A stretch of 64,000 nucleotides of DNA from positions 186,001-250,000 of the forward strand of contig JAGVPB010000048.1 of the NCBI GenBank assembly GCA_020052415.1, given 5' to 3'. The notes below the pieces were generated by a model that searched no databases, was not told the DNA's origin, and saw nothing but the letters and a program-made list of their open reading frames with translations. Numbering within the stretch: the first letter of the stretch is position 1; every line of letters starts with the position of its first letter. A program made the translations under genes and the position numbers. The stretch is from Bacteroidales bacterium (lineage in GTDB: Bacteria > Bacteroidota > Bacteroidia > Bacteroidales > JAADJA01). Positions 38,984-55,086 of the stretch are shown in pieces.

Positions 38984-40753
38984 ATGTCCTATACCGGAAA
39001 TTTTATTCATATTGATCTGAGTACAAAAAGCCAAACAATTTGTGCAACCGATAAAAATCTCACCGATCTTTACATAGGTGGAAAAGGTCTTGGATTTGCA
39101 CTTCTTGAAAAAATTGCTCCAAATCCCGATCCTCTGGGACCCGACAATCCTTTGATCTTTGTTAACGGCCCTTTTACAGGTACAAAAGTGCAAACCAGCG
39201 CCAGAACCACGTTGGTCACTAAATCTCCATTAACCAACTCAGTTTTAGATAGTCATTGCGGGGGAAACTTTGGTCCCCGGCTTAAATTTTCCGGATTCGA
39301 TTATCTTCTGATCACTGGAAAATCAGATAAACCCGTTTATCTCTATGTTACTGATAGGGTGGTTGAGATAATAGATGCAACTGATTTATGGGGTAAAGGA
39401 ATATTTTATACCGATGACACCCTGAAGGCCAGGCATCCGGGAACAGATCCGCGTGTTGCAGCCATCGGACAAGCTGGTGAAAACCTGTCAAAGATAGCTT
39501 GTATAGGTGTTGATAAACACAGGCAATACGGACGTGGTGGCGCAGGAGCAGTAATGGGATCGAAAAATCTGAAAGCCATCGTCGTTGATGGTAATCTGCC
39601 GGTCAAGTATTTTGATGAAGAAAAATTCAAAGAAGTGAACCTCCGGCTGACGCGTGAAATAACAGCAAATGATGGGGTAAAATTCCGCAGGATCAAAGGA
39701 ACAATGAAATGCGTCAGAAGCGGGCAAACCAATGAATATCTTCCGACAAAAAATCACCAGTTGGTACAGTTTGATGATTTTGAAAAGATCAGTTCGGAGG
39801 CAGCAAGAGAAGAACTGAACTGGGAAGATACAAGTTGCTTTAATTGTGCGATCCGTTGTTCAAAATGGGCAAGGTGGGACGGCCATGAAATTGAGGGCCC
39901 GGAATATGAATCTACTGCATTCCTTGGATCCGGCAGCATGGTAAACAACATTAAAGATGTGAGTTGGGCAAATGAGATTTGCAATGACCTTGGACTGGAC
40001 ACGATCAGTACCGGTCTGACCTGTTCTTTTGCTATGGAATGTTATGAAAAAGGAGTACTCGATGATTGGCAGGGTGTAAAAATGGTATGGGGAAATGCCG
40101 GGGAACAGCGTAAATTCATTGAACTCATGGCTCACAGAAAGGGCATAGGCGAAATATTTGCCGACGGGACAAGAGATGCGGCAATTAAACTCGGAAAGGG
40201 CAGCGAAGCCTGGGCAATCAATACTTACGGAATGGAGCTTTCCGGAATTAATCCGAAAGGTTCACTTACTATGGGAGTCATGTTTGCAGTGGCTGATTTT
40301 GCGAGCCATACAAGATTATGGATCGCCGAACAGGAAATGGGTCCGGATTTTACAGTTGAAGATATTCCACAGGCACTGGCAGATGGTATAGATACGGTAA
40401 ATGTGCGAAACTGCCTTGTGATTTGTGATTTCGTTCCTCTTAACCTTGAAAAGTTAGCCGAATTGCTGAACGCCGCAACAGGGTCCGACCATACGGCAGA
40501 TTCGTTAATGAAGGCTGGTGCACGACTGACTCACCTTGCCCGCCGGTACAATCTTCGTAATGGCAGGACACACACAGATGATACTTTACCCGGCAGATTT
40601 TTTAATGAGGAATCTTTAGCCGGATTTATGAGAGGTAAAAAGCTGGATCGCGAATATTTTAATTCTATTGTCAGGAAATATTATTCCCTGCGAGGATGGA
40701 ATGAAAAGGGACAACCTTCTGATCAGATTATGCAGGAGGCCAGTATTCTTTAA
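38984..40753 (+). CDS. Aldehyde:ferredoxin oxidoreductase family
   Basis: 589 residues, close to the family norm (about 600). The N-terminal domain has Ile-Gly-Gly-Lys-Gly-Leu-Gly and Gly-Pro-Phe-Thr-Gly-Thr, and the pterin-binding region Gly-Arg-Gly-Gly-Ala-Gly-Ala-Val-Met-Gly-Ser-Lys-Asn. The [4Fe-4S] ligands are C285, C288 and C292 (Cys-x2-Cys-x3-Cys) plus a late Cys in Arg-Asn-Cys-Leu-Val-Ile-Cys-Asp-Phe. Members hold a tungsten-bis-pterin centre and oxidize aldehydes to acids, passing electrons to ferredoxin. No ferredoxin or cofactor gene is adjacent. It follows the HepT gene by three bases. Substrate unknown. Confidence 0.92.
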   Translation: MSYTGNFIHIDLSTKSQTICATDKNLTDLYIGGKGLGFALLEKIAPNPDPLGPDNPLIFVNGPFTGTKVQTSARTTLVTKSPLTNSVLDSHCGGNFGPRLKFSGFDYLLITGKSDKPVYLYVTDRVVEIIDATDLWGKGIFYTDDTLKARHPGTDPRVAAIGQAGENLSKIACIGVDKHRQYGRGGAGAVMGSKNLKAIVVDGNLPVKYFDEEKFKEVNLRLTREITANDGVKFRRIKGTMKCVRSGQTNEYLPTKNHQLVQFDDFEKISSEAAREELNWEDTSCFNCAIRCSKWARWDGHEIEGPEYESTAFLGSGSMVNNIKDVSWANEICNDLGLDTISTGLTCSFAMECYEKGVLDDWQGVKMVWGNAGEQRKFIELMAHRKGIGEIFADGTRDAAIKLGKGSEAWAINTYGMELSGINPKGSLTMGVMFAVADFASHTRLWIAEQEMGPDFTVEDIPQALADGIDTVNVRNCLVICDFVPLNLEKLAELLNAATGSDHTADSLMKAGARLTHLARRYNLRNGRTHTDDTLPGRFFNEESLAGFMRGKKLDREYFNSIVRKYYSLRGWNEKGQPSDQIMQEASIL

Positions 40754-44641: not shown

Positions 44642-47005
44642 TTATCCCTGCTGATGCTCCGTCCTCGCGATGATCTCATCCTGCAACTCCTCTGTGAGGT
44701 CAACAAAATAATCACTGTAACCTGCCACACGGACGATCAGGTCACGGTAATTTTCAGGATTTCTTTTTGCTTTTCTCAAAGTATCTGCACTCACTACGTT
44801 GAATTGAATATGATGCCCGTCGAGCCGGAAATAGCCCCGGATAAGATTTTTTAAATCCTCAATTCCTTCATCATTGGAAAGGAAAGCAGGTGTAAACTTC
44901 TGGTTTAGTAATGTGCCTCCGGTCCTTATATGATCGATTTTGGAAGCTGATTTCAGGACTGAGGTTGGTCCTTTTCTGTCAACACCCTGGACCGGTGAAA
45001 TGCCTTCCGACAATGGCTTTTCGGCTTTGCGTCCGTCCGGCATTGCGCCTATCACACTTCCAAAATAAACATGACAGGTAGTCGGTAATAAATTTACTCT
45101 GTGAACGCCCCCTCTTGCAGTAGGCTTGCCATCAATAGCTTGAAAGAACATTCCGAAAACCATTCGCATGATGTCGTCGGCATAATCATCGTCATTACCA
45201 TATTTTGGTGTGTTTTCAAGCAACTCTTTTCTGAATTCCTCATAATCCACAAAATCATTGGCCAGTGCTTCGAGTAAACCGGTCATGTTAATGGTCTTTT
45301 TGTCAAAAACATGATATTTAAGCGCTGTCAGTTCATCGGAGATGCTGCCTAATCCCACACCCTGGATGTAGCTTGTGTTGTAGCGGGCGCCGCCATCATG
45401 ATAATCCTTTCCCTTCAGGATACAGTCATCGATCAAAACCGAGAGGAATGGAACAGGCATTTCATGGGCGTAAATCCGGTCTATGATATTGTTGCCTTTA
45501 ATTTTTATCTCAATGAAATGATTCAGTTGATTATCAAAGGCAGCCATCAGCTCTTCGAAAGTCTTAAATGATGCAGGATCTCCTGTTTGCAATCCTATGG
45601 TTTTTTTTGTCCCGGGATCGAATCCGTTGTTCAAGGTTATTTCGAGAACCTTCGGGATGTTGAAATAGCCGGTCAGAATATAAGCCTCCTTGCCGAAAGC
45701 GCCGGTTTCGACACAACCGCTGGCTCCGCCATTTCTGGCATCTTCTATGGATTTCCCAACACGAAGCATTTCCTGTATAATAGCATCGGTATTGAAAACC
45801 GAAGGCTGACCATAACCGGTTTTAATGATTTTCAAAAATCTTCTAAGATATTGATCCGGATTTTTTTTGCTTACCTGCACCATTGTTCCTGGTTGCAGTA
45901 GCCTCATTTCCTCAATCACATCGAGTATCAGGTATGTCAGCTCATTTACCGCATTAGATCCATCGGCTTTAACTCCTCCGAGGTTGATGAGGGTAAAATC
46001 GGTGTAGGTATTACTTTCCTTAGCGGTGACGCCAATCTTGGGAGGAGCAGGATGATTATTGAATTTGATCCAGAACGCCTGCAGGAGTTCTTTCGCTTTT
46101 TCATACGTCAAGGAACCATCAGCAATTTCTTTTTGGTAAAAAGATAAAAAGTGTTGGTCGAGCCTGCCCGGATTGAAGGAATCCCATGGATTTACCTCCG
46201 TGATCACACCGATATGGACGAACCAATAGTATTGAAGCGCTTCATGGAAAGTACGAGGAGCATTGGCGGGAACATAACGACAAATACCAGCCATTTCTGC
46301 TAATTCTGCTTTCCTGATATCAACTTTCTCCGCATTAGCAAGTTTATCAAGTTCAATTGCATGCCGGTTTGCAAACATAATCAGCGCTTCTGCCGCAATG
46401 GACATTGCCTTCAGCTGTTCATTTTTATTTATTGAATCAGAATCATTTTTGAAGTCAAGTTTTTTCTGCTGCATTTGAATTTCGGTAATGAAATCATTCA
46501 TTCCTTTCCTGTATATTTTATCATCCAAAACTGTATGTCCGGGTGCACGCTGTTCCTTGAACTCAGTAAAAACACCGGCATGATAGGCGTTCTTCCATGC
46601 TTCCGGGAGTTCGTTGAACATTTTATCCCTGATGGCTTTGCCTTTCCAATATGGCGCTATAATGTCTGCATATACCTTCCTCGTTTTCGGTTCAGAAGTA
46701 AAAGGAACCTTTTCACGTGAATGAAGGATTTCAAGGTCTTCCTGTGAGTGAACACAAATTTCAGGGTAAGTAGGCGCTGCTTGTGGCGCCGGACCACGCT
46801 CGCCTACAATCAACTCGCCATCATTAATGCAGATATATTTGTTTTCAAGGATATATTTGAAAGTTAAGGCTCTTTTGACTGGTATGCTTACGTTTTCAGC
46901 TTCATTATTTTGATAAAACCTGGTAACGAGCAATGCTCTTTCATCTGAAATAAATGGCCTGGTTTGGGTACTTTGTTTCCGGAGCCTGATTATTCTTTCA
47001 GTCAT
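44642..47005 (-). CDS. hypD: Glycyl radical enzyme, trans-4-hydroxy-L-proline dehydratase-like
   Basis: About 787 residues from the ATG at 47005; upstream frame to 47071 is repeat-derived. Glycyl radical loop Arg-Val-Ala-Gly-Tyr-Ser with G762, and active-site Gly-Cys-Val-Glu-Thr-Gly with C431. Other motifs match the hydroxyproline dehydratase subgroup as I recall it: Arg-Ala-Pro-Gly-His-Thr, Trp-Asp-Ser-Phe, Thr-Tyr-Thr-Asp-Phe, Leu-Thr-Gly-Tyr and Leu-Pro-Thr-Thr-Cys-His. HypD removes water from hydroxyproline to give pyrroline-5-carboxylate, normally followed by reduction to proline; no proC is in this window. It lies downstream of its activase on the minus strand. Oxygen-sensitive, so implies anaerobic growth. 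Confidence 0.88.
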   Translation of the reverse strand: MTERIIRLRKQSTQTRPFISDERALLVTRFYQNNEAENVSIPVKRALTFKYILENKYICINDGELIVGERGPAPQAAPTYPEICVHSQEDLEILHSREKVPFTSEPKTRKVYADIIAPYWKGKAIRDKMFNELPEAWKNAYHAGVFTEFKEQRAPGHTVLDDKIYRKGMNDFITEIQMQQKKLDFKNDSDSINKNEQLKAMSIAAEALIMFANRHAIELDKLANAEKVDIRKAELAEMAGICRYVPANAPRTFHEALQYYWFVHIGVITEVNPWDSFNPGRLDQHFLSFYQKEIADGSLTYEKAKELLQAFWIKFNNHPAPPKIGVTAKESNTYTDFTLINLGGVKADGSNAVNELTYLILDVIEEMRLLQPGTMVQVSKKNPDQYLRRFLKIIKTGYGQPSVFNTDAIIQEMLRVGKSIEDARNGGASGCVETGAFGKEAYILTGYFNIPKVLEITLNNGFDPGTKKTIGLQTGDPASFKTFEELMAAFDNQLNHFIEIKIKGNNIIDRIYAHEMPVPFLSVLIDDCILKGKDYHDGGARYNTSYIQGVGLGSISDELTALKYHVFDKKTINMTGLLEALANDFVDYEEFRKELLENTPKYGNDDDYADDIMRMVFGMFFQAIDGKPTARGGVHRVNLLPTTCHVYFGSVIGAMPDGRKAEKPLSEGISPVQGVDRKGPTSVLKSASKIDHIRTGGTLLNQKFTPAFLSNDEGIEDLKNLIRGYFRLDGHHIQFNVVSADTLRKAKRNPENYRDLIVRVAGYSDYFVDLTEELQDEIIARTEHQQG

Positions 47006-47029
47006 AGTTAAATTCGTTTTATTTCGTGT

Positions 47030-47190
47030 AATTCGTGGACTGTATTGGTTGAATCGGTAAATTCGTGACATTCGTGTAATTCGTGGACTGAATTAGTTGA
47101 ATCGGTAAATTCGTGACATTCGTGTAATTCGTGGACTGTATTGGTTGAATCGGTAAATTCGTGACATTCGTGTAATTCGTGGACTAAATC
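47030..47190 (+). repeat. 48-bp tandem repeat, three full units and a partial fourth
   Basis: Units start at 47030, 47078 and 47126 (partial at 47174), each beginning AATTCGTGGACT and containing GGTTGAATCGGTAAATTCGTG or a one-base variant. Because 48 is a multiple of three, the minus strand is open as a 16-residue peptide repeat, which I regard as non-coding. The array lies between the activase and the glycyl radical enzyme. The same family occurs at 23439 and, degenerate, at 20198. Confidence 0.9.
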
Positions 47191-47230
47191 AGCTCCGAAG
47201 TATTTTGTCATATTCATGCAGTGGTTAAGA

Positions 47231-47995
47231 TCATCCCCCTATTTTCGTTTTAAAACCGTTGCTTTCAAACAGATTACGATATTCCTGCATTTCGGTTTCC
47301 GGTAATTTCTTTATACCTGCCATGATGTTTATTATTCCGAACTTTTTGTACTTGTTTTCAGCAATTTTATGAAAAGGCAGAAGGTTAATCTCTGGTTTCA
47401 CCGGATATTTTCCAAGAAGTTTTATTATGGAACCGATATTGTCGCCGGTGGCAGTGATTTCGGGTATCATAGGAATACGAATGATGACATTTGCATCTTT
47501 ATTTAAAAGGAAATCAAGGTTTTCCAGAATTTCCGTATTTGAAACCCCTGTATATTTCAGATGCTGAACCGGATCCGCAAGTTTGATATCATAAAGGAAC
47601 AGTCCGGTAAAAGGAAGTATCTGTTTAAACAAAGTTTTATGGGCATAACCGGAAGTATCAATAGCCGCAGGAATACCGCTTTCAGAGCATTTTTTTAATA
47701 TCCTCTTCAGAAATTCCGGCTGTGCCAAAGGTTCGCCACCTGAAAAAGTAACTCCGCCGCCTGATTCTTCATAAAAGACTCTGTCCTTTTCGATCTCGGT
47801 GAATAATTCTTCTGTTTCAACAGTTCGGCCAATCACCTCATTATTTAATCCGAAAGGCGGGAATAATCTGCCTTCCGGGTTGTGACACCAACCGCATCCA
47901 AGATGACAGCCTTTCATAAAAACCGTTGTTCTGATGCCAGGCCCATCGTTGACTGAAAAGCGCTGAATATTGAAAATCACACCGTTCACCGACAT
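47231..47995 (-). CDS. Glycyl-radical enzyme activase, compact radical-SAM form
   Basis: 254 residues. The radical-SAM cluster motif is C30-x3-C34-x2-C37 (Gly-Cys-His-Leu-Gly-Cys-Gly-Trp-Cys-His), followed by Thr-Phe-Ser-Gly-Gly-Glu-Pro-Leu. Only one further Cys is present, so the ferredoxin-like insert with two extra [4Fe-4S] clusters, found in most activases of dehydratase-type glycyl radical enzymes (about 300 residues), is missing. It generates the glycyl radical on the enzyme encoded at 44642-47005 by cleaving S-adenosylmethionine. The two genes are in the same direction but separated by the 48-bp repeats. Confidence 0.9.
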   Translation of the reverse strand: MSVNGVIFNIQRFSVNDGPGIRTTVFMKGCHLGCGWCHNPEGRLFPPFGLNNEVIGRTVETEELFTEIEKDRVFYEESGGGVTFSGGEPLAQPEFLKRILKKCSESGIPAAIDTSGYAHKTLFKQILPFTGLFLYDIKLADPVQHLKYTGVSNTEILENLDFLLNKDANVIIRIPMIPEITATGDNIGSIIKLLGKYPVKPEINLLPFHKIAENKYKKFGIINIMAGIKKLPETEMQEYRNLFESNGFKTKIGG

Positions 47996-53982: not shown

Positions 53983-54720
53983 ATGAAGCCTTTTACTGCA
54001 ATCATCGTTGATGATGAGCAGGAAGCCAGGGATATTCTGGCTAACCTGCTTAAAGACTATGTACCCGACATTCGTGTCGTAGCTCAGGCTGCCTCTGCCG
54101 ACGAAGCCATAGACTTTATCCTTCAGGAAGATCCTGATATAGTTTTTCTCGATATTGACATGCCGGGTAAAAATGGGTTCGAGGTAGCACACAGCATCAG
54201 CGCCCAACAACTTCAAACGACAATTGTTTTTGTTACGGCTTACAACCAGTTTGCCATTGATGCAATTAAATGCTCTGCTTTTGATTATCTCTTAAAGCCG
54301 GTGAGCCTCGGCGATCTGAAAACATGTATTACAAGATACAGGGCATCAAACAAGGTACAAAACCTACAACAGTCCGTCAACCAACTGATGAACTGCCTTA
54401 ACCGCGAAAAATTAAGTTTTCACAGCCGCACCGGAACCATTTTCATTGATCCTCAAACCATTGTTTATTGCGAAGCTGAAGGCAATTATACCGATCTGTT
54501 TCTTGAGGAAGGTAAAAGGCAAACTGTTTCGCAGAGCCTGGGCAGTGTTGAAACAATGCTTGATGGTAATGGTTTTTCAAGAATCAGCCGTTCGGTCATC
54601 ATCAACCGGCGGTTCCTGAACCAGATCAGCCGTAAAGAAAAAAAGTGTAAACTGATTGCAGCAGAAAAAGAATATTCTCTCGAAATAAAAAGTTCATATA
54701 TGCGCAAGTGGATGAAATGA
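53983..54720 (+). CDS. LytTR-family response regulator
   Basis: 245 residues from the ATG at 53983; the longer frame to 53890 has a non-receiver leader and is less likely. Receiver domain 1-120 with D10/D11 and phosphoacceptor D57 (Val-Phe-Leu-Asp-Ile-Asp-Met-Pro-Gly), conserved Lys near 107 (Leu-Leu-Lys-Pro-Val), then a LytTR DNA-binding domain with Cys-Glu-Ala-Glu-Gly-Asn-Tyr-Thr and Arg-Ser-Val-Ile-Ile-Asn. A cytosolic transcription factor paired with the kinase upstream; the 166-base gap between them has no visible terminator. The C-terminus abuts the CTTTGCG repeat island. Confidence 0.94.
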   Translation: MKPFTAIIVDDEQEARDILANLLKDYVPDIRVVAQAASADEAIDFILQEDPDIVFLDIDMPGKNGFEVAHSISAQQLQTTIVFVTAYNQFAIDAIKCSAFDYLLKPVSLGDLKTCITRYRASNKVQNLQQSVNQLMNCLNREKLSFHSRTGTIFIDPQTIVYCEAEGNYTDLFLEEGKRQTVSQSLGSVETMLDGNGFSRISRSVIINRRFLNQISRKEKKCKLIAAEKEYSLEIKSSYMRKWMK

Positions 54721-54790
54721 GTGTGAAAGAAATATCACGCCAAGACGCTAAGACGCTAAGATGTATTTCCATTTATCCATCCTTTGCGGC

Positions 54791-55018
54791 TTTGCGTGCA
54801 ACCTCTTTGCGCCTTTGCGCCTTTGCGCCTTTGCGTGCAACCCCTTTGCGCCTCTGCGCCTTTGCGTGCATTTCCTTTGCGCCTTTGCGTGCAACCCCTT
54901 TGCGCCTCTGCGCCTTTGCGTGCAATCCCTTCGCGCCTTTGCGCTTTTGCGTGCATTTCCTTTGCGCCTTTGCGTGCAACCCCTTTGCGCCTCTGCGCCT
55001 TTGCGTGCAATCCCCTAA
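54791..55018 (+). repeat. TTTGCGTGCA repeat array upstream of the GxxExxY gene
   Basis: The decamer TTTGCGTGCA occurs at 54791, 54830, 54861, 54884, 54915, 54946, 54969 and 55000; spacings are 39, 31, 23, 31, 31, 23 and 31, all one less than a multiple of eight, reflecting an 8-base sub-unit CTTTGCGC. The rest of the 54721-55086 gap is short A+T-rich flank. Several frames on both strands are open, which is a by-product of the repeat. Confidence 0.92.
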
Positions 55019-55086
55019 AGACTTTGAGAGAAAATTTATAATTATTACGGCTCGATTTTGACATTATAATTTAAAAACTATACACC

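Follow-up and report, generated by a model that had tools for sequence, protein, structure and literature searches.

Hydroxyproline is an amino acid of collagen. The closest described relative of the system reported here is the pair formed by HypD of Clostridioides difficile (structure 6vxc), a glycyl radical enzyme (GRE) that acts as a trans-4-hydroxyproline dehydratase, and its activase HypD-AE, encoded by an adjacent upstream gene. We analysed a HypD pair in a 64,000-nucleotide stretch of a Bacteroidales bacterium genome (assembly GCA_020052415.1, contig JAGVPB010000048.1, positions 186,001 to 250,000), called the window throughout. The gene arrangement is that of C. difficile and the enzyme family is shared, but the activases differ: between the radical S-adenosylmethionine (SAM) motif CX3CX2C and the motif GGGVT, the C. 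difficile activase (L175) carries 89 residues with nine Cys, whereas the window activase carries 41 residues with none. C. difficile also has a proC-type gene nearby, whereas the window genome gave no proC match. We consider it probable that the window encodes a complete two-gene HypD system whose activase, here called HypE, lacks the two additional iron-sulfur (auxiliary) clusters of the usual form, with flavodoxin-type activation, conversion of hydroxyproline to 1-pyrroline-5-carboxylate (P5C) and an oxidative or ornithine-directed fate for P5C.

Going by the title of a 2014 study by Selvaraj, the radical of 4-hydroxyphenylacetate decarboxylase reportedly lasts only if the activase has its ferredoxin-like domain, the part of GRE activases that holds the auxiliary clusters. 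In two other papers, the role of the domain is called "still largely unknown" (PMC10239695) and its clusters "of unknown function" (PMC11528403). The first also reports that IbsAE makes its glycyl radical without its auxiliary clusters, which can therefore be dispensable in vitro, and that the radical of 4-Hpad-AE is short-lived without them (PMC10239695). IbsAE still encodes the domain, whereas the window activase gene does not. A published precedent for GRE activases without the insert comes from glycyl radical enzyme microcompartments (GRM), among whose activases only those of GRM5 lack it (PMC6325248). GRM5 activases belong to microcompartment loci, and HypD is not known to be their partner. 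Our literature search, whose reach was incomplete for the HypD work of 2017-2018 and which covered sources in part, found no description of a HypD activase lacking the domain, and an earlier notice is possible.

The window enzyme and its activase

By sequence, the window enzyme is HypD. It scores 1259.8 bits against a curated equivalog cut-off of 1100 (NF043068), its best PDB match is C. difficile HypD (6vxc), and the GCVETG Cys loop and the RVAGY glycyl loop are both present. The earlier note on this DNA had read the enzyme as HypD-like from such motifs, and the coordinates and strands it gave for the gene pair are correct. The features are as follows.

47231..47995, minus strand: hypE-like radical SAM activase of 254 residues, cluster-less form (profile matches, AlphaFold 2 model)
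47885..47908, minus strand: CX3CX2C motif CHLGCGWC, residues 30-37, radical SAM cluster (all 102 aligned activases have Cys at each of its three Cys positions)
47762..47884, minus strand: Cys-free linker of 41 residues where long forms have the ferredoxin-like insert (motif spacing; short strands in the model)
44642..47071, minus strand: HypD, 809-residue open reading frame (ORF), probable start near 47005, Met23 (NF043068, 6vxc, 14 of 14 sites)
45707..45715, minus strand: Cys-Val-Glu of the Cys loop, C434 and E436 in C. difficile numbering (alignment to C. difficile HypD)
44720..44722, minus strand: radical-carrying glycine in RVAGY, equivalent to G765 of C. difficile HypD (alignment to C. 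difficile HypD)
47004..47192, no strand: tandem repeats (48-bp unit) between hypE and hypD, which also underlie the probably spurious N-terminal extension of the hypD ORF

All 14 active-site positions that we checked are identical to C. difficile HypD (F152, R156, H160, W277, D278, K326, S334, D339, F340, C434, E436, Y450, T645 and G765); the roles of most of these residues are given in PMC7077986. The same 14 residues occur in 83 of the 85 HypD rows that have all positions present; the 83 include the C. difficile reference, the window itself and three rows that are a genome's second copy. Contig ends truncate four more rows, one of which (L141) has Leu for Phe340 at its broken end. The two exceptions, L157 from an Aminicenantes metagenome-assembled genome (MAG) and L163 from a Theionarchaea MAG, lie beside a long activase and have Thr in place of Glu436, with Cys-Val-Thr-Ile-Ser replacing Cys-Val-Glu-Thr-Gly. 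Because E436Q abolished the activity of C. difficile HypD (PMC7077986), the reaction of these two enzymes may differ.

Could the window enzyme act on another substrate? The earlier note had suggested as much, and we found no support for it, given the match at every checked site and the equivalog score. Substrates such as another hydroxyproline isomer therefore seem to us very unlikely. The lack of a proC match in the genome would fit such a change, as would five HypD positions that separate two subtypes, one of which (335) adjoins the substrate-binding Ser334. However, the checked positions cover catalysis as well as binding, and peptidase and proline racemase families recur in the flanks of other short-form loci, neighbours that fit the breakdown of proline or hydroxyproline peptides. 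An S37 peptidase lies in the flanks of six short HypD loci, an Xaa-Pro peptidase family in those of four short and two long, and a proline racemase family protein in those of two short and one long; the window is not among them. These neighbour clusters, like the proC cluster below, were named from one member each, and flanks were fetched up to about 6-10 kb, many being cut by contig ends. Within these flanks, we looked for a common pathway neighbour of hypED and found none conserved across genera. We read the lack of proC as a sign that P5C has another fate, and not that the reaction has changed. A search of the window's own genome for a second GRE of family PF02901 found none.

The activase has 254 residues and four Cys in total, three in CX3CX2C and one at position 103, which bears out the earlier description of a protein with a single cluster motif, one further Cys and no ferredoxin-like insert. 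Cys103 is unlikely to be a remnant of the insert's cluster ligands, because Cys is common at that position (85 of 102 aligned activases), including two of three activases of pyruvate formate-lyase (PFL). The profile of trans-4-hydroxyproline dehydratase activases, NF043069, matches the protein in two stretches, residues 52-254 on profile positions 97-299 and the N-terminal part on positions 2-40; the missing part is therefore the ferredoxin-like insert, with its two four-Cys motifs. NF043069 is nevertheless the best family of the window activase, at 294 bits, and the gene lies next to hypD. The protein also passes the general GRE activating protein model TIGR02494 (274.2 bits, cut-off 174.35) and fails the PFL activase model TIGR02493 (177.3 bits, cut-off 231.75). 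Among HypD partners as a whole, short forms, defined by at most two Cys in the linker (49 rows), have linkers of 38-56 residues with no Cys in 39 rows, one in nine and two in one, and long forms have linkers of 81-90 residues with 7-10 Cys.

The earlier note had left room for a second full-length HypE elsewhere in the genome, or for an activase outside the partner set of this enzyme. Neither was seen: a genome-wide search found no second full-length HypE, the next best NF043069 match having an E value of 1.4e-9, and the window activase groups with activases beside HypD in an 11-row starred set of the activase tree.

A PFL-type activase recruited to HypD, as opposed to a HypE that lost its insert, would also look like this protein, since PFL activases likewise have no insert and provide the closest solved structures. 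An AlphaFold 2 model of the window activase (mean predicted local distance difference test score 92.8), in which the linker forms short strands, superposes on PFL activase 3cb8, solved with SAM and peptide, with Z 34.0 and 1.4 A over 242 residues. The two proteins share one radical SAM cluster motif, the absence of a ferredoxin-like domain and nearly the same fold; they differ in partner and sequence clade, and the window linker is longer. We nonetheless rejected recruitment, to which we assign very little probability, on profile scores, activase tree and linker lengths. The protein scores 294 bits with the HypE model against 177 with that of PFL activase, and a starred branch (99) of the activase tree parts the three PFL activase rows from the rest. 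Short linkers of HypD partners measure 38-56 residues, against 33 in each of L198-L206, whose GREs are under 30% identical to HypD, and the short linker aligns with long HypE at both ends. Moreover, the Enterococcus short form falls inside the C. difficile and Tepidibacter group (99 and 100, starred).

Another explanation for a HypE without the insert is that a separate small ferredoxin supplies the ferredoxin-like domain in trans, docking on the short HypE as a split version of the long form. Long forms with conserved cluster Cys do exist beside related HypDs, and outer anchors of the insert, an invariant Gly among them, are still present in the short linker. However, a small ORF (60-159 residues) with the pattern C..C..C...C occurs in the flanks of only one of 47 short loci (L089), so no dedicated partner is conserved beside the genes in the fetched flanks, distant ferredoxin genes lying outside the search. 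We rejected a nearby partner ferredoxin on this count and regard docking in trans in general as unlikely.

Distribution and ancestry of short activases

Is the short activase peculiar to this genome? In a set of 60 genomes, made up of the window's own genome and relatives, HypD is over the cut-off in 25. The activase beside it is short in 18 and long in five; in one (G033) it is split with a stop and short-looking, and in one (G006) it lies off the contig. The window's own genus holds both kinds: G011 and G016 have a long form beside a different HypD lineage, near the same three-gene block as the window pair, but on the other side of that block. On our reading of the sequence, the block holds a murB-like gene together with two glycosyltransferases; one of the three is without a Pfam match. 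In 296 Bacteroidota genomes, we read 29 new activase loci, of which 12 lie beside a HypD part of at least 50% identity. Six of these are short and four long, one has five Cys, and one (L189) contains a stop and was left unmeasured; three more short-looking matches (G110, G175, G283) lie outside the loci read.

Unlike these two draws, a scan of named genomes was started from short forms and covers the best 80 of its 586 confirmed stretches, which biases the proportions of short and long that it gives. In these 80, short forms are HypD neighbours in Bacteroidota, Ignavibacteriota, Calditrichota, Zixiibacteriota, Krumholzibacteriota, Neomarinimicrobiota, Myxococcota, Verrucomicrobiota, Enterococcus, an Olavius symbiont and a short contig named Heimdallarchaeota. 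Mis-binned contigs may lie behind some MAG names, and L129, the HypD named Heimdallarchaeota, comes from a contig of 3.1 kb that lacks the glycyl loop. The HypD counts leave out nine loci where the sequence seen around the activase holds a different GRE or no GRE (L124, L149, L150, L152, L155, L167, L169, L172 and L174) and L173, classed as "other" although a HypD start is seen behind a run of N; they include L089, a HypD fragment, as a HypD partner. Four of the short activases left out (L149, L167, L169 and L172, from Clostridium aminobutyricum and Clostridia MAGs) lie beside a different GRE that is 33-34% identical to C. difficile HypD. On a 919-kb plasmid of Enterococcus gilvus (L211), hypD and a 259-residue activase gene adjoin genes for thioredoxin and the glycine reductase components grdA and grdC.

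Three HypD activases are intermediate: L134 has a 61-residue linker with four Cys, and L164 and L188 have 77 residues with five. Their Cys number suggests at most one auxiliary cluster, and they look like one-cluster stages or side lines. Gene order was considered as a marker of the two types and rejected, hypE preceding hypD in 49 of 49 short and 28 of 38 long rows. We also rejected gene decay or a deletion confined to this locus: short forms are present elsewhere in the genus, in the order and in other phyla, and the dN/dS of HypE is 0.17 in one pair, the other six of seven pairs being saturated at dS. On these sequence comparisons, the short activase is a widespread and stable version, not a local oddity.

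The HypD tree, built without the activase from 88 rows and 792 columns by a quick LG+G4 search with no mixture model and without HypD rows under 680 residues, places the window in a clade (support 94) in which 43 of 44 rows have short activases. Three Enterococcus short rows lie inside Clostridia with C. difficile and Tepidibacter (support 100), a placement with which the activase tree agrees (99). Over 83 HypD rows, three changes of the cluster-less label suffice. Approximately unbiased (AU) tests, from which L174 was dropped, rejected all 46 short rows together (p 6e-52) and were compatible with the 43 non-Enterococcus short rows as one clade (p 0.474). Short activases thus fit a single large HypD clade together with an independent origin in Enterococcus. 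Loss of the insert is likelier than gain because other GRE activases share it (PMC6325248), a direction of change that the tree by itself does not reveal.

Probable P5C fate and proposed mechanism

What becomes of P5C in a genome with no proC match? The clostridial route reduces P5C through the P5C reductase encoded by proC. The earlier note was right that no proC is adjacent, and a search of the whole genome, 97.4% complete, also gave no match at E 0.001. Across 17 genomes of the genus, proC is over the cut-off in none; five have weak sub-cut-off matches, and several are incomplete. For proA, the window's own genome has only a weak sub-cut-off match, in an aldehyde-dehydrogenase-like frame. 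P5C dehydrogenase and ornithine aminotransferase are over their cut-offs in the same genome, and because these are present while proC and proA were not found, P5C probably goes to glutamate or ornithine. We infer that hydroxyproline is used by this route as a carbon and nitrogen source, and the genome suggests oxidative use instead of the clostridial reductive route.

Gene content was compared in 42 genomes from G017-G059 (43 different family codes, G059 left out). P5C dehydrogenase is over its cut-off in 11 of 12 genomes with HypD versus 13 of 30 without (p 0.0055, uncorrected for kinship), and proC in 4 of 12 versus 18 of 30 (p 0.17). Genomes with HypD fragments (G002, G008, G059) stand in neither group, and G006 and G033 count as HypD-bearing, neither short nor long. 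In the flanks, a proC-type cluster occurs at 5 of 40 cluster-bearing or one-cluster loci, all Clostridia, versus 0 of 47 short loci.

In the mechanism that we propose, HypE would bind SAM on its single [4Fe-4S] cluster and receive an electron straight from a soluble carrier, for which flavodoxin, the donor of PFL activase, is the likeliest candidate. It would then form a 5'-deoxyadenosyl radical and abstract hydrogen from the RVAGY glycine of HypD without a ferredoxin-like domain. HypD would dehydrate trans-4-hydroxy-L-proline to P5C, and P5C dehydrogenase would turn P5C or glutamate semialdehyde into glutamate, or ornithine aminotransferase would turn it into ornithine, or both; it would not become proline. 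A PFL-activase-like mechanism is the likeliest because of the fold match to 3cb8 and because the genome encodes flavodoxin: two flavodoxin-like proteins were found, one over the TIGR01752 cut-off and one below it. Flavodoxin as the donor is suggested by the resemblance to PFL activase. The earlier suggestion that the activation path may differ from the known system is consistent with this fold and with a large HypD clade having retained the short form.

What the sequences show are the identity of the genes, the lack of cluster motifs, the linkage and conservation of the pair, its phylogeny and the gene content; several points weigh against the proposed cluster-less HypD system. The window activase stays under the curated HypE cut-off (294 versus 425 bits), although no genome in either draw passes it, long-form genomes included; these searches scored each matching stretch on its own, and the match of a short form falls into two such stretches. 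A cluster-bearing pair, Desulfofundulus (L151), sits on a long branch inside the cluster-less clade on the best tree; the support of that clade, 94, falls short of a star. The activase tree itself, with insert columns removed, is poorly resolved: it leaves 45 of its 99 inner branches open and requires 11 changes among HypD partners. A contig end truncates the P5C dehydrogenase (475 residues read), which is not encoded near hypD. Among the 18 genomes with short HypE, three have no P5C dehydrogenase over the cut-off (G003, G004 and G009, with completeness of 89, 73 and 84%), and three have proC (G023, G030 and G054). Finally, enzyme activity, electron donor and flux direction are inferences.

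Implications and minor observations

Nature provides matched pairs in which the same enzyme, with the same substrate residues, is served by an activase with or without the domain, and in addition forms with four or five Cys (L134, L164 and L188). The purpose of the auxiliary clusters is therefore directly testable. Annotation can miss short activases: no genome in the two draws passed the HypE cut-off, and the 259-residue E. gilvus gene beside hypD is annotated only as "radical SAM protein." A bolder reading, which we offer tentatively as somewhat less probable than its opposite, is that there are two old types of HypD activation, one of which, in several phyla and perhaps Heimdallarchaeota, has permanently lost the clusters and is fed by flavodoxin, with Enterococcus having arrived there independently. 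If this is true, the auxiliary clusters would be an optional module that goes with the cell's supply of electrons or its history with oxygen, and not with the GRE reaction.

The hypE gene ends 225 bp upstream of the likely hypD start, both genes lying on the minus strand. The first 22 residues of the 809-residue hypD ORF are encoded within the 48-bp tandem repeats and their flank, and the family alignment begins at residue 24; because of this, the true start is probably Met23, near 47005, and the N-terminal extension is probably spurious. In one relative (G010, L013), a different repeat immediately precedes hypE. At 54700-55064 of the window lies a repetitive stretch with open frames of repeated units on both strands, probably an intergenic repeat. 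An aldehyde ferredoxin oxidoreductase-like protein is encoded at 38984-40753 on the plus strand (214.9 bits, under the cut-off of that model). Elsewhere in the window's own genome (contig C81, L066:492-2702), a NifS-like cysteine desulfurase is fused to the selenide water dikinase SelD. Beside it is a rhodanese-like P-loop protein that, by our reading, may be a tRNA 2-selenouridine synthase; the fusion and this neighbour suggest selenium use.

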